Shown here: one piece after another, positions 1,384-11,497 of the stretch
How positions within the stretch are numbered: the stretch's first letter is position 1
Layout of the letters: each line of letters starts with the position of its first letter
Virus record (IMG/VR): IMGVR_UViG_3300029922_000308
Span: 1-23,191 of that record
Length of the DNA stretch: 23,191 nt
Origin: a virus
Reading direction: 5' to 3' (one strand)
Program-made: the position numbers and the translations under genes
The notes under the pieces: model-generated
The model's database searches: none
Told to the model about the DNA's origin: nothing
What the model saw: the letters and a program-made list of their open reading frames with translations, nothing else

Positions 1384-2103
1384 ATGACTAAGAAGTATAA
1401 ACTACTACTGGATGATATCAAAGACATTGGTAATACTAAATTATATAGAATACAAAGACTATCTGATGGTCAATTAGGTGGTTATATCCAATCAGAGGAT
1501 AATCTTAGTCACCTGGGTAATACCTGGGTCTCTGATAATGCCCAGGTCTCTGGTAATGCCCGGGTCTATGGTGATGCCCAGGTCTGTGGTTATGCCTGGG
1601 TCTATGGTGATGCCAAGGTCTATGGTAACGCCCAGGTCTTTGGTGATGCTCGGGTCTATGGTGATGCCCAGGTCTATGGTAATGTCTGGGTCTATGGTAA
1701 TACCCGGGTCTATGGTAATGCCCAGGTCTCTGGTAATGCCCGGGTCTATGGTGATGCCCAGGTCTGGGGTGGTGCCAATGTCTATGGTGATGCCCGGGTC
1801 TATGATTATGCCTGGGTCTATGATAATGCCCGGGTCTCTGGAAAGGCCCGGGTTATTAGTCCCCAATGTATTATTCATCTACAAATAGGTTCTAATTTTC
1901 ACGTGACTATTCTAAGACGACAAGTTCAAATTGGGTGTAAAGTCTTTACGCGTGACCAAATAAAAGCCATAACAGCTTCTCGAGCGGAGGAGTACGGACT
2001 ACGTAGAAGCGACTATATCCCCTATCGTAAAATGATCTTAGGTGCTATGCGCTTGATTTCTCCTAACGGCGGTGCTTATGCCAAGAAAGAGATAATCAAA
2101 TGA
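1384..2103 (+). CDS. Left-handed beta-helix hexapeptide-repeat protein, 239 aa
   Basis: Residues 1-46 form an N-terminal cap with YKLLLDD, KLYRIQRLSDG and GGYIQSEDN, also present in the protein at 3099. Residues 47-157 hold about 18 hexapeptides of the type A-x-V-Y/S-G-N/D. This fits the left-handed beta-helix pattern, and three units per turn would give about six turns. The C-terminal part (about 158-239) is non-repetitive, with VQIGCK followed by a helical, basic stretch. Proteins of this type are frequent in phages and bacteria (hexapeptide-repeat, YdcK-like), but their role is mostly unknown. No acyltransferase active-site residue is recognisable, so transferase activity should not be assumed. 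GGAAGG at 1375-1380 supports the start. The stop overlaps the next start by 4 bases. Confidence 0.85.
   Translation: MTKKYKLLLDDIKDIGNTKLYRIQRLSDGQLGGYIQSEDNLSHLGNTWVSDNAQVSGNARVYGDAQVCGYAWVYGDAKVYGNAQVFGDARVYGDAQVYGNVWVYGNTRVYGNAQVSGNARVYGDAQVWGGANVYGDARVYDYAWVYDNARVSGKARVISPQCIIHLQIGSNFHVTILRRQVQIGCKVFTRDQIKAITASRAEEYGLRRSDYIPYRKMILGAMRLISPNGGAYAKKEIIK
1522..1854 (+). repeat. 18-bp tandem coding repeats, about 18 copies
   Basis: The beta-helix section is also a DNA repeat with an 18-base period and consensus close to GCCCGGGTCTATGGTGAT. Several units are identical over most of their length, and the same unit recurs in the gene at 3099. Such arrays can change copy number in frame by slippage or recombination. 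Confidence 0.8.
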
Positions 2104-3098: not shown

Positions 3099-3728
3099 AT
3101 GAAAAAGTATAAACTATTACTGGATGATACCATAGACATTGATGGTATCAAGTTATATAGGGTCCAAAGATTATCTGATGGTCTGATAGGTGGTTATATC
3201 CAATCAGAGGATAATTTCAGTCACGAGGGTTATGCTATGATCTTTGGTAATGCCCGGGTCTATGGTAATGCCGTGGTCTATGGTGATGCCCGGGTCTATG
3301 GTGGTGCCCTGGTCTATGGTGATGCCCGGGTCTATGGTGATGCCCAGGTCTATGGTAATGCCCTGGTCTATGGTGGTGCCTGGGTCTATGGTAATGCTCT
3401 GGTCTATGGTGGTGCCCTGGTCTATGGTGGTGCCCTGGTCTATGGTAATGCCCTGGTCTATGGTAATGCCCTGGTCTATGGTAATGCCCGGGTCTATGGT
3501 AATGCCCGGGTCTATGGTGATGCCCAGGTCTATGGTAATGCCCGGGTCTTTGATACTAAACTTTCGTATGGTATTAAAATAGATAATGATGTCGGGTCTA
3601 AAATTAACCCCAGTCTACAGGGGCCAAGTATGCAATTAGATACTTGTATCCACTCATGGAAATCGTATACTGGGCTAACGGAGACTTACGCTTACTGTAC
3701 TAAGTGCGATAAAAGGGATACAAGATGA
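3099..3728 (+). CDS. Second left-handed beta-helix repeat protein with C-terminal zinc motif, 209 aa
   Basis: The N-terminal 45 residues closely match the cap of the gene at 1384 (YKLLLDD, QRLSDG, GGYIQSEDN). Residues 46-151 hold about 17 hexapeptides, more uniform than in the first copy, mainly A-L/R/Q-V-Y-G-N/D/G. After a short linker the C-terminus has C183-I-H185 and, 15 residues later, C200-x-x-C203, with GLTETY between them. This is a probable small zinc-binding knuckle. It is nearly the same as the C-terminus of the separate 68-residue protein at 7781 and is absent from the first beta-helix protein. AAGGAAA precedes the start. Function is unknown; a trimeric scaffold or binding protein is the usual expectation for this fold. 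Confidence 0.85.
   Translation: MKKYKLLLDDTIDIDGIKLYRVQRLSDGLIGGYIQSEDNFSHEGYAMIFGNARVYGNAVVYGDARVYGGALVYGDARVYGDAQVYGNALVYGGAWVYGNALVYGGALVYGGALVYGNALVYGNALVYGNARVYGNARVYGDAQVYGNARVFDTKLSYGIKIDNDVGSKINPSLQGPSMQLDTCIHSWKSYTGLTETYAYCTKCDKRDTR
3234..3551 (+). repeat. 18-bp tandem coding repeats, about 17 copies
   Basis: Units are close to GCCCTGGTCTATGGTGGT or GCCCGGGTCTATGGTAAT. Some neighbouring copies are identical at DNA level, for example the GCCCTGGTCTATGGTAAT units around 3443-3486. The array is more homogeneous than the one at 1522-1854, which suggests recent expansion or gene conversion. Confidence 0.8.
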
Positions 3729-4429
3729 AAATAAATGATTATCTATTAGCCTGTCGTCCCTATCTAAATAAAGATCTAATGATGGGTGGGCATCCTGTCC
3801 CGGCGGATGCAGGTCAGCAATGTGACAATCACGCCATGTTCACGGCAGAATACCTACGCATTGCTAAGGATATCGACCCCTCGTATAAACCCTCTAATCA
3901 TGTATGGGAGTTTGAACATAATGGCCAGCTCTATCGGTATATTACTAGTGACTCTGCTCTGGATCTATCTCCAGATGATTATCTAGGGTATCTTAACTAT
4001 TGTAACCTTTATGACCAACAATCGGCGCTTCGTCTTCTAGATTTTGGTAGGGCCAATTGGGGTTCCTACACCTCACCATGGAGTACGGTAGGCTTTCTGT
4101 GGCGACAACCGCAGCTATGGTGTGCTTGTCTAGCGGCTGCGGGTAAGCTAAGATTCTACCACCTTCCTCTTGTGATCTACACCGCCCTAGTTATCCTCGT
4201 GGCAGGGCACGGTGCTAGTCCTATAGCTGATCAAGACACACGTCGCCTCAGTTGGCACTTGATTCAGGTTATGAAAGGCGTATCCTGGTTATGTAGGCAG
4301 GCGGCGAAGGTCTGGTGGAGGAGATTAAGGAGTCAGTATGGCGAGGATGGGATGCGGATTGTATTTGCTAGGTATTTCGATGCTAGTCACCCTTTCGCAC
4401 GTTTTGCCGTTAATGAGTTGGAGAGGTAA
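3725..4429 (+). CDS. Unknown phage protein with one hydrophobic segment, 234 aa
   Basis: The start overlaps the preceding stop by 4 bases (ATGA). I do not recognise the family. The N-terminal half (1-130) has many conserved-looking small motifs, including GGHPVPADAGQQCDNHAMFT (21-40) and NHVWEFEHNGQLYRY (58-72). Residues 144-161 (FYHLPLVIYTALVILVAG) are hydrophobic enough to be a membrane segment or buried helix. The C-terminus is basic and aromatic, with two tryptophans before RRLRSQYG. It is directly followed by the glycosyltransferase gene with no gap, so a joint role in glycan synthesis or surface modification is possible, but this rests on position only. Confidence 0.7.
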   Translation: MKINDYLLACRPYLNKDLMMGGHPVPADAGQQCDNHAMFTAEYLRIAKDIDPSYKPSNHVWEFEHNGQLYRYITSDSALDLSPDDYLGYLNYCNLYDQQSALRLLDFGRANWGSYTSPWSTVGFLWRQPQLWCACLAAAGKLRFYHLPLVIYTALVILVAGHGASPIADQDTRRLSWHLIQVMKGVSWLCRQAAKVWWRRLRSQYGEDGMRIVFARYFDASHPFARFAVNELER

Positions 4430-5434
4430 ATGAAAATCTTATTCGTGGATGATGTTTGTCCCCGACCTTATGAAGTAACCTCCCTGGATACTATGCCAAT
4501 GGGCGGCACAGAAGCAACGTGTGCCAGGTTGATTAGGGAACTATCGAAACAAGACACTATCTTCATGTCGCAACAGAAGAGGACCGAGGAGCATGTAGAT
4601 AGTTTAGGAATTTCCTATCTTAAGGCAGACACATTAGTTGACAGTCCGGATGCAGTTATCACACTGCGAGATGCCAGGACGTTTCGAATTGTGAATGAGA
4701 GATACCCAAAGGCGAAACATTATTTGTGGATGCATGACGTTGTCTCGGGACCGTACTTAGAGCATCTACAACAGTGTATTGTGGACTTTCCGACTACGAT
4801 GCTTGCAGGTTCCTTATGGCACAAGATGCAGATTGCGGGTCAGTTGCCAGATCAATTTAATAAAGGGCTACTCAAGATTGAGCAAGTGACAAACTTCGTC
4901 GAGCACTACTGTGATAGGACCTCTGACCGAAGCTTCGATCCCTACAAGCTATCATTCTTCTCTTCTCCTCACAAAGGACTTGAGCGAGTACTGACACTCT
5001 TCACAGAGTTACACAAAAGAGAGTCGAAATACCAACTATATATTAGTAATCCAGGGTACTTTGCAAATCGAGAAGACCTCCCAGAGGGAGTAGTTCAACT
5101 CGGCGTATTATCTCATAAAGACGCGATCGAGAGCATACGAACCTCTTTGTGTACTTTCTATCCTAACAATACATTCCCAGAGACGTTTGGTCTCGTGTAT
5201 GCCGAGAGTAACGCTGTAGGCACTCCTGTTCTTTGCCACGACATTGGAGCCGCCAAAGAGATCATTACGACACCACAACAAATGGTTAGTGAAGATCCTG
5301 AAGTAGTTTACAAGACAGTCATGGATTGGACAGCAGGACTTAGGCCGGTGGTGAAAGTGAAAGAGCAGTACACGATCGGAGAAGCTATCCGTGATTGGCG
5401 TAAAATGTTAAATCCAATGAGGTTACTAAAATGA
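4430..5434 (+). CDS. GT-B fold glycosyltransferase (GT4-like), 334 aa
   Basis: The N-terminus KILFVDDVCPR followed by MGGTE (24-28) matches the acceptor-side start of GT-B enzymes. In the C-terminal half, FFSSPHKGLERVL (176-188) corresponds to the nucleotide-sugar binding region. PETFGLVYAESNAVGTPVL carries the EX7E motif (E251 and E259) characteristic of retaining GT4-type enzymes. The length is normal for a compact member. It would transfer a sugar from a nucleotide sugar to an unknown acceptor. In phages such enzymes modify DNA bases, virion proteins or host glycans, and nothing here decides between these. It starts right after the TAA of the previous gene and overlaps the next small gene by 4 bases. 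Confidence 0.85.
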   Translation: MKILFVDDVCPRPYEVTSLDTMPMGGTEATCARLIRELSKQDTIFMSQQKRTEEHVDSLGISYLKADTLVDSPDAVITLRDARTFRIVNERYPKAKHYLWMHDVVSGPYLEHLQQCIVDFPTTMLAGSLWHKMQIAGQLPDQFNKGLLKIEQVTNFVEHYCDRTSDRSFDPYKLSFFSSPHKGLERVLTLFTELHKRESKYQLYISNPGYFANREDLPEGVVQLGVLSHKDAIESIRTSLCTFYPNNTFPETFGLVYAESNAVGTPVLCHDIGAAKEIITTPQQMVSEDPEVVYKTVMDWTAGLRPVVKVKEQYTIGEAIRDWRKMLNPMRLLK

Positions 5435-5550
5435 TCAAACTATTAGGATATGGATTATTAGGGTATTTGGCAATAATCCTTTGGCCCCTCTTAATGCCGT
5501 TTATTTTGGGATGGTTTATTATCTATGTTCTGCAAGAGAGCAAGCGCTAA
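5431..5550 (+). CDS. Small membrane protein, 39 aa
   Basis: The ATG is in an ATGA overlap with the glycosyltransferase stop (5431-5434). The protein is almost entirely hydrophobic from residue 4 to 33 (LLGYGLLGYLAIILWPLLMP, then FILGWFIIYVL) and ends in the polar tail QESKR. This is one long or two short membrane segments with a central Pro. Its last 4 bases overlap the end of the endolysin gene on the other strand. It could be a holin-like protein or an accessory membrane peptide, but the strand and operon differ from the endolysin, so this is only a possibility. Confidence 0.55.
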   Translation: MIKLLGYGLLGYLAIILWPLLMPFILGWFIIYVLQESKR

Positions 5551-5972
5551 CTTAAATATAGATCATGTTCAGCTTGTCGCCTTGCCGTTAAACCCGGAAG
5601 GACTTTGCCCCCGGCCCGGTTCCACTTAAGGAACTCACTAGCTACTGCTAAGTCTGTTTGGCCATCAAGCAGTTTTCGCCACATTGTAGATTTTAAAAGG
5701 GCGCTAACTCCCAGGTTATAAGCAAAGTCAAGTAATGCGCCCATTTTCGTGTCACTTAGTGGTTTAGGTAGTTCTGAACTAAGTTTGTCTTCTAAGTGGG
5801 TTACTGTTTGAGTCAGCGCAACATCCGCCTGCTTCTGTGTCCAAACGACCCCACATGTAATAGGATATCCTGTTTGCCCATACCCAATCGTCCAGATTCC
5901 GACAGGGTCTTTATACGCCGTTAGTTTACAGCCCTCAAATCGCTTGATTAACTCTTCTGCATACTTGTTCAT
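5547..5972 (-). CDS. Endolysin, GH24 lysozyme (T4/P1 type), 141 aa
   Basis: This enzyme cleaves the beta-1,4 bond between N-acetylmuramic acid and N-acetylglucosamine in peptidoglycan. The N-terminus has FEGCKLTAYKDPVGIWTIGY with the catalytic triad E13, D22 and T28, at the same spacing as E11/D20/T26 in T4 lysozyme. The C-terminal region (FAYNLGVSALLKSTMWRKL, then WNRAGGKVLPGLTARR) is the usual GH24 ending. Length is typical. There is no N-terminal signal-anchor, so it would need a holin for release. GGAG lies 7 bases before the ATG, and the start overlaps the stop of the upstream 60-residue gene (ATGA). It is the last gene of a three-gene minus-strand island. Confidence 0.93.
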   Translation of the reverse strand: MNKYAEELIKRFEGCKLTAYKDPVGIWTIGYGQTGYPITCGVVWTQKQADVALTQTVTHLEDKLSSELPKPLSDTKMGALLDFAYNLGVSALLKSTMWRKLLDGQTDLAVASEFLKWNRAGGKVLPGLTARRQAEHDLYLS

Positions 5973-6151
5973 AATACTTCTCCAGTTAGGTCTTCTAGGG
6001 CTAGATAAAACTCTTGATCATCAATGTGAATTCCTTGATCCACCTGCAACGTCTTAAAGACAGAGATCGCATCTTGAAGGGCCTTCTTGTAACCCTGTTT
6101 GTATCCAATCCGGTAGCTTTCGGCGTATTTACCATCGGTATCAGGTTTCAA
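5969..6151 (-). CDS. Unknown small protein, 60 aa, TTG start
   Basis: I place the start at TTG (6151, reading left), because AAGGAGG sits 6 bases before it. A longer frame upstream would give an unlikely Ser/Arg-rich N-terminus inside the neighbouring gene. The protein begins MKPDTDGKYAESYRIGYKQG and continues as a probable helix with a Tyr/Lys/Gln pattern, then an acidic tail (DDQEFYLALEDLTGEVL). No family is recognised. It overlaps the upstream gene by 11 bases and the endolysin start by 4 bases, so all three are probably co-translated. By position it may be a packaging or lysis accessory protein. Confidence 0.65.
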   Translation of the reverse strand: MKPDTDGKYAESYRIGYKQGYKKALQDAISVFKTLQVDQGIHIDDQEFYLALEDLTGEVL

Positions 6152-6557
6152 TGTCCACCTCCTTAGGTTTGAAGTCTGGTAATATGACCTGAAGCGACGT
6201 TGCTTGTTGCTGCTGCGTCTGCTTGTCGATCCCCAGCGACTTGATGATGATCTCAACGCCTTTAAGATCGCCTTTCTCTAGGGCTTTCTTTAACGTTTTA
6301 TGGGCTAAGGGGACTAGCTCCTGCATCATCCCCTTCCAGGTACTAGCAGCTACAGACACCATCTGGTCAGAGAGTTCTGACAGGTGCTCCTTGAATTCAT
6401 CGGTCTTCATTAGCTTACCGACCTGCCGTCTCGTGATATGCATGTGGTCCATGATACCTTGTATACTACTTCCAGTAATTAACATTGACGCGACTATCTT
6501 AGCTTTTGAAGACTCAACGGCCTCTAATGCATCATCAGGTATTGTCTGTTCATCCAT
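6141..6557 (-). CDS. Probable terminase small subunit, 138 aa
   Basis: Residues 17-55 look like a helix-turn-helix (SKAKIVASMLITGSSIQGI, then ITRRQVGKLMKTDEF). Long helices follow (about 56-115, including MMQELVPLAHKTLKKALEKG and GVEIIIKSLGID). It ends with a Gln-rich linker and LQVILPDFKPKEVDIET. This order, with an N-terminal DNA-binding domain, central oligomerisation helices and an ILP-type tail, is typical of phage terminase small subunits, which recognise the packaging site. No large terminase is in this window to confirm it, so another HTH phage protein remains possible. The SD is poor (AGAGGA about 12 bases upstream), but a good promoter lies at 6583-6611. Confidence 0.5.
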   Translation of the reverse strand: MDEQTIPDDALEAVESSKAKIVASMLITGSSIQGIMDHMHITRRQVGKLMKTDEFKEHLSELSDQMVSVAASTWKGMMQELVPLAHKTLKKALEKGDLKGVEIIIKSLGIDKQTQQQQATSLQVILPDFKPKEVDIET

Positions 6558-6582
6558 ATATTATATATTTTCCTCTTGTTTT

Positions 6583-6611
6583 ATCTTACTAAAAATGGTG
6601 GAATATATCAA
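6583..6611 (-). promoter_or_regulatory. Sigma70-type promoter for the minus-strand island
   Basis: On the minus strand TTGATA (6611-6606) is followed after exactly 17 bases by TAAGAT (6588-6583). It lies 26 bases upstream of the ATG at 6557 and reads into the terminase-like, 60-aa and endolysin genes. The gap is only 70 bases and is shared with the divergent gene at 6628. Confidence 0.5.
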
Positions 6612-6627
6612 TATAGGAAATAAACAA

Positions 6628-7032
6628 ATGAAGAAAGCAGGCGGAACTAAGCACGATTCAGGTAAAGCGGGAATGGATCTTATACCCTTTGATGGTATTG
6701 TAGAGATTGCGAAAGTTCTTGACTTTGGCGCTAAAAAGTATACACCGGGGAATTGGGCCAACGGGATTCAGTTCTCTAGGCTTTTGGCAGCGGCAGAACG
6801 CCACATTGGGGAATACAAGGAAGGCCGGGATATCGATCCCGAGAGCGGATTAAATCACATCGCACATGCGGCGACCAACCTAGTCTTTCTTCTATGGATG
6901 CAAAAGCACCGACCCGAACTAGATAATCGATGGATTAAAGAGTCAAAAGAAGTCCCATCTAAGGCACAGGAAGAGGCATTTTGTGATGAGATGAAAAGTA
7001 AGGTTTCCCAAATCCTCAAGGGGATCCCGTGA
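6628..7032 (+). CDS. MazZ/DUF5664-like dNTP pyrophosphohydrolase, 134 aa
   Basis: The segment DLIPFDGIVEIAKVLDFGAK, then KYTPGNWANGIQFSRLLAAA, ERHIGEYKEGRDIDPESGLN and HIAHAATNLVFLLW, closely fits the dATP/dGTP diphosphohydrolase N-terminal family (formerly DUF5664). That family is related to all-alpha MazG-type enzymes. Key visible residues are E and H in ERHIGE, D and E in DIDPESG, and the two histidines of HIAHA. Family members hydrolyse dNTPs to dNMPs. The MazZ enzymes of 2-aminoadenine (Z-DNA) phages are related, but neither PurZ nor DatZ is in this window. The ATG at 6628 has AGGA at 6615-6618, and an upstream extension would run through the divergent gene. The stop overlaps the next GTG start. 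Confidence 0.7.
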   Translation: MKKAGGTKHDSGKAGMDLIPFDGIVEIAKVLDFGAKKYTPGNWANGIQFSRLLAAAERHIGEYKEGRDIDPESGLNHIAHAATNLVFLLWMQKHRPELDNRWIKESKEVPSKAQEEAFCDEMKSKVSQILKGIP

Positions 7033-7781
7033 CAGCTAAGAACAGTTACAGCTTCTCCGCACTCTCCGCTGCTTATAATTGCCAGCAGCTGTACAAGTTT
7101 AGGTATATTGATAAGATTATCCCCAAACAGGACCAGACGGGGGACTTAGCCTTCGGTAGTGCAATCCACTTTGCTCTAGAACAGTATTATACTGAGAAGA
7201 GTGATCCTGTAGAGAGTTTTAAATTATACTGGGAAGCAATGCTATCTAAAGACCTTCAGTACGGGAGATACAATCACGTGGCTCTGGCTGCTATGGGAGA
7301 AACCCTGCTAGTCAGATATGTAAGGCTACACGCTGATAAGCTCGGTGCTAGGTATGTAGAAAAGAGGCTCTTCACTACGATTGAAGGACATAAGTTAGAG
7401 GGTACTCCTGACGTGATAGGGGACTTTGAAGGCGAACTATCCGTGATCGACTTTAAGACCTCCGGCTATCGCTATCCTAAAGACAAGATCCTAATTAGTG
7501 AGCAAATGACCCTTTACGCCGCGATGGCCACTAAAGAATACAAGCTACCTATCACTCAGGTGGTGTATATCGTGTTCATCAAAGGCACAGTCCCATCTAT
7601 TCAGATTCTAAAGAACCCCCTCACCCAAGACACAGTTGCCGAAGTAGTGACTAACGTAGTACAACAGATTAATGATCTCGAGTCTAAGATTAAAGATAAT
7701 AGGCCTTATACAAGAAATACGAATAACTGTATTAAAGGGCCGATCATGTGCCCGTACTTTGAAACCTGTTGGAGGAAATAA
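7029..7781 (+). CDS. RecB/Cas4-like PD-(D/E)XK exonuclease with putative Fe-S cysteines, 250 aa
   Basis: RecB-family motifs appear in order: GSAIHFALE (H47), EGTPDVIG (D128), VIDFKTS (D141 and K143) and SEQMTLYAA (Q159, Y163). One cysteine lies near the N-terminus (C18) and three near the C-terminus (C234, C241, C247), the arrangement that holds an Fe-S cluster in Cas4 and AddB nucleases. Phage proteins of this kind process DNA ends for recombination. The next-but-one gene encodes a Rad52-type annealing protein, so the two probably act as an exonuclease-annealase pair. No CRISPR array or other Cas gene is present. The GTG start overlaps the preceding TGA. Confidence 0.85.
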   Translation: MTAKNSYSFSALSAAYNCQQLYKFRYIDKIIPKQDQTGDLAFGSAIHFALEQYYTEKSDPVESFKLYWEAMLSKDLQYGRYNHVALAAMGETLLVRYVRLHADKLGARYVEKRLFTTIEGHKLEGTPDVIGDFEGELSVIDFKTSGYRYPKDKILISEQMTLYAAMATKEYKLPITQVVYIVFIKGTVPSIQILKNPLTQDTVAEVVTNVVQQINDLESKIKDNRPYTRNTNNCIKGPIMCPYFETCWRK

Positions 7782-7987
7782 TGAATAAATCGGTAATGGA
7801 CTTAAAGTATCTACTACAGTCCGATTACATCATTCTCGATGGTTTTCGAACAACTAAGGATATAATCCAAGAACATTATGCAAATATTAAAGCTGGAATG
7901 GTCTGCATTCATGAGTTTAAAGACTATGTAGGACTAACTGAAACCTATAAATACTGTGTTAAATGTGATGAAAAGGAGAAACAATGA
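7781..7987 (+). CDS. Small protein with C-terminal CxH-CxxC zinc motif, 68 aa
   Basis: The ATG at 7781 is in a TAATG overlap with the nuclease stop and has GGAGGA at 7771-7776; an in-frame ATG at 7769 lies inside that gene and lacks such a site. Residues 1-40 are probably helical (VMDLKYLLQSDYIILDGF, then TTKDIIQEHY). Residues 42-63 carry C42-I-H44, a GLTETY segment and C59-x-x-C62-D. This C-terminal motif is almost identical to the end of the beta-helix protein at 3099 and probably binds one zinc ion. It lies between the nuclease and annealase genes, so it may help either. Function is unknown. Confidence 0.75.
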   Translation: MNKSVMDLKYLLQSDYIILDGFRTTKDIIQEHYANIKAGMVCIHEFKDYVGLTETYKYCVKCDEKEKQ

Positions 7988-8664
7988 CAATTAGTGAGAT
8001 GTTAGATGCAAAGATTCCCCGTGAGGTTATAAGTGATCGGGATGGGGGTGGCGGTCGTAGGCTTAGTTATTTAGAGGGTTGGTATGTCATTGACCGCTTG
8101 AACAAGGTCTTCGGTCCCGGCGGATGGTCAAAAGAGATTACGGATGTCAGACAGTTAGGGACCGCAAACGCAAAGCCCTCTTATATCGTCAAGGTCCGCT
8201 TGACGGTAATCGTGGACGGTACCGCAGTGGTTAAAGAGGGGTATGGTTATGGCTCTGATAAGAGTGCTAACAATCCTCACGAGCTGGCCATTAAAGAGGC
8301 AGTGACCGATGCCCTTAAAGTAGCCGCAAAGGATCTTGGCATGAGTATGGGATTGGCCCTTTATGATAGATCACAGGAGAATGTTGATGATGGACAAGAA
8401 AAAGAAGCCCACAAACCCGTTCCAGTGGCGAAAGCTATGGATAAGCCAGAAGTACAGAGTCAGGTCCTCGTTAGTCCTCCCGACCAAGGAGGTCAGCTAC
8501 GAAAATACATCCAAAACGCCTCTAAAATTGCCATGAAGAAAGGGCTGAGTCTCGAGGACTTAAAAAAGAGCTTTAAAGATAAGTTCGGATTTGATAAACT
8601 GTCTGATGTAAGTGAAGTCGAAAAACTGTTGGAAGTCAAAAAACATATTGACTCCCTAATTTAA
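7984..8664 (+). CDS. Rad52/Rad22-family single-strand annealing protein, 226 aa
   Basis: Residues 1-125 match the Rad52 annealing domain: LSYLEGWYVIDRLNKVFGPG followed by GW, then a KVRLTVIVDGT beta strand, GYGYG, and HELAIKEAVTDALKVAAKDL followed by GMSMGLALYD. Eukaryotic Rad52 and phage Sak-type proteins share this order. The protein would form rings that bind single-stranded DNA and anneal complementary strands. Residues 126-175 are a polar, Glu/Pro/Val-rich linker. The last 50 residues are a helical, Lys-rich tail (KKGLSLEDLKKSFKDKFGF), possibly for partner binding. The start overlaps the previous stop by 4 bases. The Cas4-like nuclease upstream is its likely partner. Confidence 0.88.
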   Translation: MTISEMLDAKIPREVISDRDGGGGRRLSYLEGWYVIDRLNKVFGPGGWSKEITDVRQLGTANAKPSYIVKVRLTVIVDGTAVVKEGYGYGSDKSANNPHELAIKEAVTDALKVAAKDLGMSMGLALYDRSQENVDDGQEKEAHKPVPVAKAMDKPEVQSQVLVSPPDQGGQLRKYIQNASKIAMKKGLSLEDLKKSFKDKFGFDKLSDVSEVEKLLEVKKHIDSLI

Positions 8665-11206: not shown

Positions 11207-11289
11207 TCTTACTTGGAGGCTTCCTACTCGGATTAGGCGTAGGGTTCTATTTAGGTTCTTATCTATTGGAGGTGTACTTTGCCGATTAG
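11203..11289 (+). CDS. Tiny membrane protein, 28 aa
   Basis: The ATG is in an ATGA overlap with the polymerase stop (11203-11206). Residues 2-22 are one hydrophobic, glycine-rich segment (ILLGGFLLGLGVGFYLGSYL), followed by LEVYFAD. The last 11 bases overlap the next gene, whose GGAGG ribosome site lies inside this frame. The GxxxG-like spacing could support helix packing. It is short enough to be chance, but the coupled start and clean hydrophobic profile favour a real gene. Confidence 0.45.
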   Translation: MILLGGFLLGLGVGFYLGSYLLEVYFAD

Positions 11290-11497
11290 AGAATACATTT
11301 GTTCGGATTGTGGTCATATTCAAGAATTTTTGATGGGTCGGTGGGATCCCGAAGATACGACCTTTACCTGTGTTCATTGCGACAGCCCTAAGTTGTCCAG
11401 GTTACCCCCTGTTACTGGGGGATACCATATTATCGGCTCAAACACTTCCTCTGTAAGGCCAAAAGGGGCAGGAAGTCGCCCGCGAGGTAGTAAATGA
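11279..11497 (+). CDS. FmdB-like zinc ribbon protein, 72 aa, TTG start
   Basis: PIREYICSDCGHIQEFLMG followed by FTCVHCDSPKLSRLP gives two CxxC knuckles (C8/C11 and C31/C34), the pattern of FmdB-type putative regulatory zinc ribbons. The C-terminal half is Gly/Ser/Arg-rich and ends GAGSRPRGSK, as in many family members. The TTG start has GGAGG at 11268-11272, 6 bases upstream. No in-frame ATG exists before the first cysteine pair. The molecular role of this family in phages is unknown. Confidence 0.78.
   Translation: MPIREYICSDCGHIQEFLMGRWDPEDTTFTCVHCDSPKLSRLPPVTGGYHIIGSNTSSVRPKGAGSRPRGSK

Follow-up and report, generated by a model that had tools for sequence, protein, structure and literature searches.

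A 24-residue module with a predicted zinc hairpin recurs at the ends of unrelated small proteins of uncultured phages and may serve as a docking tag

The window analyzed here is the entire record of an uncultured virus, 23,191 bases in length. Two of its open reading frames, at 3099-3728 and 7781-7987, terminate in CIHSWKSYTGLTETYAYCTKCDKR-DTR and CIHEFKDYVGLTETYKYCVKCDEK-EKQ, respectively, and the pattern CxHx[WF]KxYxGLTETYxYCxKCD is common to both ends (Table 1). The preliminary description had reported the same motif, starting at 3645 and 7904, at the ends of two proteins otherwise unrelated to each other, and both points are confirmed. Indeed, copy 2 used as a query against the whole record found two sites only (E 2e-16 and 9e-11). 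Moreover, the protein at 3099 belongs to the YdcK beta-solenoids (PF18836, E 7e-29, 97.7 bits for a cut-off of 30), and we obtained no convincing family match for the protein at 7781, whose gene shares overlapping stop and start codons with the nuclease gene before it and with the Rad52-type gene after it. The motif had been given 22 residues, but its real length is 24, as the final Lys/Arg is conserved too.

Table 1. Features of the window bearing on the two module copies
Feature	Position	Strand	Basis and remarks
Untagged YdcK paralogue	1384..2103	+	N-terminus 77% identical to the 3099 protein; different C-terminal region, found in other phages too
YdcK-type beta-solenoid protein, 209 aa	3099..3728	+	ORF and PF18836 match; C-terminal module after a linker of ~30 residues
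Module copy 1, CIHSWKSYTGLTETYAYCTKCDKR	3645..3716	+	Sequence and profile search
PD-(D/E)XK nuclease, upstream neighbour of the 7781 gene	7029..7781	+	PF12705, E 6e-20
68-aa protein with C-terminal module	7781..7987	+	ORF; gene overlaps its neighbours (TAATG / ATGA)
Module copy 2, CIHEFKDYVGLTETYKYCVKCDEK	7904..7975	+	Sequence, profile search and AlphaFold hairpin
Rad52-family annealing protein, downstream neighbour of the 7781 gene	7984..8664	+	PF04098, E 1e-28

The two copies are identical at 16 of 24 residues and at 44 of 72 nucleotides, and the third base is kept in only 6 of the 16 residues that they have in common. This low match in nucleotides and third bases points to conservation at the protein level and not to a recent copying of DNA. 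The YdcK paralogue of the window provides a natural untagged comparison for the 3099 protein. We rejected the idea that the module is a feature of the YdcK family, as no full-length copy turned up in 77 phage records selected for YdcK (one gave a weak match over half the length). The window also encodes, at 11279-11497, a 72-aa protein with two CxxC pairs and the look of an FmdB-type zinc ribbon, which is unrelated to the module.

A single-sequence protein query was too strict for the uncultured viral contigs and retrieved nothing, so these were scanned instead with a degenerate DNA pattern, CxHx[WF-like]...G[LF]...[YF]xYCxxC. This gave 42 stretches, all but one of which contained the module; two further patterns enlarged the set, and a profile was built from the matches. 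Together, the pattern and profile searches yielded 71 non-redundant carriers of 36-259 aa, nearly all from uncultured viral contigs, though these lengths are estimates for genes with an uncertain start codon or cut off by a contig end, and the carriers found by pattern are biased toward it. Such a recurrence makes the match between the two copies of the window more than chance. The presence of the module in other phages, which the preliminary description had proposed to check by profile search, is borne out for uncultured viruses. Cultured phages and plasmids, searched by tblastn with either the module or the 68-aa protein as query, yielded no credible module, the six matches at E 4-9 being at chance level. 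In 257 Gb of bacterial genomes, five pattern matches were obtained, of which two are real, both amid phage-like genes, and one of these two contigs has two copies; about 450 genomes of the same phyla as these two starting genomes contained no module beyond them. The module is thus restricted to uncultured phages. Pfam, NCBIfam, PHROGs and PADLOC offer no convincing model for it, only scattered weak matches, and no PDB entry covers it by sequence. One carrier gave a weak NCBIfam match to NrdD (E 0.0024), which was absent from single scans of ten carriers and which we treat as a chance resemblance of zinc sites. The open-licence literature that we searched holds no description of the module, and an earlier account may exist elsewhere.

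In 68 of the 71 carriers, no more than 25 residues separate the module from the C-terminus, and in 46 of them no more than 6 aa; in the other three it is at or near the N-terminus, directly so in two. When it was removed, the 70 remainders fell into 50 families without detectable similarity (BLAST and phmmer, E 1e-3), a number to be read as a maximum, since relatives that diverged quickly may no longer be recognized. Several phage records contain two to four copies each, with four on the 62-kb contig 3300014501_000019, and these numbers are minima because contigs are fragments. In one case, L214:10087-11124 (G026), three consecutive genes carry the module, each with a different N-terminal part. 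Likewise, in contigs where a module gene stands between a ribonucleotide reductase gene and a gene that, from reading its sequence, we take to be DUF3310-like, the module persists and the N-terminal part varies: it can be as short as some 23 residues, acidic in nature, or reach some 70 residues and open with a beta-rich stretch. The preliminary description had proposed a reused module, and this is what we observe: one motif on some 50 unrelated remainders, at a terminal site, in several copies per genome and absent from other YdcK proteins. Its tie to recombination genes or to a repeat scaffold fails, as those are two of many carriers. A module that would be the rule in recombination operons was also rejected: carriers are nearer to DNA-metabolism than to structural genes in 18 of 25 cases (p 0.05, gene classes being assigned by reading sequences), a marginal link, and the nuclease/Rad52 locus is one of many.

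The linkers may be modular too. In several carriers (for example L180:6555-6935, L004:6358-6657 and L010:4849-5133), a short segment resembling [FS][IV]PIxIxI immediately precedes the module. Two others, L035:2241-2666 and L039:4877-5101, have a short LSQEEID stretch in common, which resembles, possibly by chance, the N-terminal segment by which the flagellar switch protein FliM binds CheY.

The spacing of the candidate metal ligands is C-x-H-x14-C-x2-C, and C1, H3, C18 and C21 are present in all 71 carriers. The first pattern left Tyr8, Asp22 and Lys24 free; among its matches, Tyr8 is nonetheless invariant and the other two are frequent. As a safeguard against circularity, one scan was run with the first Cys and the His left free and another with the CxxC left free. 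They returned 38 and 31 stretches, of which all but five were known carriers, and the unforced ligands were always recovered, all matches of one scan having the C and H and all those of the other the CxxC. The five new stretches keep the ligands, with C-x2-H or C-x3-H in three of them. AlphaFold predicts a two-stranded beta-hairpin (strands 11-15 and 20-24, core pLDDT of ~90), which in the model is positioned between the two ligand pairs, as in a zinc ribbon or zinc hairpin; the hairpin appears again in the model of the 68-aa protein, whose N-terminal part is of low confidence. Because the unforced searches recover the Cys and His residues and the predicted hairpin is confident, the module is likely a minimal Zn(CHCC) hairpin, and a zinc site in it is well supported by residue conservation and modelling. 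Structure searches with the module, a model of just 33 residues, gave a best E of 2.3 with Foldseek and no Z of 2 or more with VIA-align.

How could such a module be used? In the scheme that we propose, many unrelated small phage proteins would bear a self-contained 24-residue zinc hairpin at one terminus, the C-terminus in nearly all cases. This module would consist of a Cys-x-His turn, a beta-hairpin in which Trp, Tyr and Gly are conserved, a Cys-x-x-Cys turn and then Asp-x-Lys. Each carrier would owe its own activity to its variable part, and the hairpin would recruit all carriers to the same protein partner inside the infected cell. We give about an even chance to this reading, in which the module would be a phage-restricted terminal docking tag, probably zinc-bound, for a single partner. 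As expected of such a tag, one module is found at the terminus of unrelated proteins. At the variable positions, copies from the same genome match more often than copies from different genomes (0.46 versus 0.36, permutation p 0.00035), whereas at third codon positions the values are 0.49 and 0.51. This likeness beyond codons fits a co-adaptation of the copies to a genome-specific partner, as judged from sequence comparison; it could also reflect an old duplication inside the phage lineage, or an amino-acid bias in common. Furthermore, the module has a mean charge of -0.3, close to neutrality, and is attached to acidic remainders; such charges suit contacts with protein better than binding to nucleic acid. 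Together with the within-genome likeness, they lead us to favour a docking tag. The common partner put forward in the preliminary description is plausible, given the within-genome likeness; no partner gene, nor any gene family common to all module-bearing records, was found, and nothing pointed to a host protein over a phage one. Much of the conservation of the module may merely hold a tiny hairpin together.

Three other explanations deserve consideration. The hairpin could be a nucleic-acid-binding zinc module that anchors small proteins of many kinds to the DNA or RNA of the phage, as nucleic-acid binding is common among small zinc hairpins. The conserved aromatic residues and lysines, as well as the slight excess of carriers near DNA-metabolism genes, are in line with this, but the charges of module and remainders and the marginal nature of the positional link argue against it, and we regard it as unlikely. 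Quite unlikely, in our opinion, is a role as a stability cap, a zinc-clamped end opposing terminal unfolding or proteases without any specific partner. The terminal site on unrelated proteins and the compact, metal-clamped fold predicted for the module would suit a cap; however, a mere cap needs neither the conserved non-ligand residues Tyr8, Asp22 and Lys24 nor the matching within genomes, and the module is also found behind long, apparently flexible linkers.

The carriers might also descend from a single ancestral family of small genes in which the C-terminus was conserved and the N-terminal part hypervariable, and which was duplicated within phages without any transfer of the module between proteins. 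The syntenic slots in which the module is kept and the N-terminal part differs could be understood in this way, as could the greater likeness of copies within one genome and the kinship that fast divergence can hide. Nevertheless, the YdcK carrier clearly joins the module to a separate, otherwise untagged family, and two carriers have it directly at the N-terminus, which makes such an origin improbable.

A broader and more tentative proposal, which we believe in rather less than in the tag itself, is that a group of uncultured phages would place one zinc-hairpin "address tag" on whichever small protein requires it and so gather an unrelated cohort on a single hub inside the infected cell, the tag being fixed and the cargo turning over. 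If true, this would be unusual in that conservation would lie in the tag and not in the protein that bears it. Small early phage proteins mostly have no known function and resemble nothing; a tag on about 50 unrelated kinds of them offers one handle, and finding its partner would place many orphan proteins in one process.

The module-bearing phages have other recurrent features. Of 37 module-bearing records, 17 encode a protein resembling a lipoprotein, many copies of which have an HExxH-type peptidase motif (L216:11906-12481 in G026, L255:3388-3963 in G030 and L203:12804-13358 in G136, for instance), and one copy used as a query found nothing in cultured phages and no clear host. These phages also frequently encode secreted proteins of ClpP/SppA-like and subtilase-like type. 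A second zinc-like N-terminus, MSYVEHCxxHGQYHGExCxEC, occurs twice in the viral contig L196 (18883-19143 and 19445-19861) and again in a module-bearing MAG contig (L160:3653-3943), and is possibly a second recurring module. Finally, a large-terminase frame in L241:10441-12927 (G033) has an apparent intein-like insertion (CLAKGTLVYT...).

Several known systems share part of these properties. Like zinc ribbon and zinc beta-hairpin domains (TFIIB-type ribbons and some NUDIX hydrolase ribbons), the module has two short metal-binding turns, here predicted, joined by a beta-hairpin, and it shows a weak, non-significant structural similarity to entries such as 3cng and 8iue. It differs from them by its C-x-H first turn (C-x2/3-H in a few), its length of 24 residues only and its own aromatic/Gly/Asp/Lys signature, and it gave no convincing match to a family model and no significant one to a solved structure. 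NUMODs of homing endonucleases are short modules shuffled among phage proteins as DNA-binding parts of nucleases; the present module is likewise short and probably shuffled, but its carriers are not nucleases and it has no NUMOD match in Pfam. In phage T4, the capsid-targeting sequence of the internal proteins is a short N-terminal tag, cleaved, on otherwise unrelated proteins. The module is also a short terminal tag on unrelated phage proteins; in contrast, it is mostly C-terminal, a zinc site is predicted in it, and its genes show no clustering next to head genes. As for the 3099 protein, its N-terminal and repeat parts are those of the YdcK family (PF18836, NF040481), and what sets it apart from the other YdcK proteins and YdcK-bearing records examined is that it carries the full-length module.
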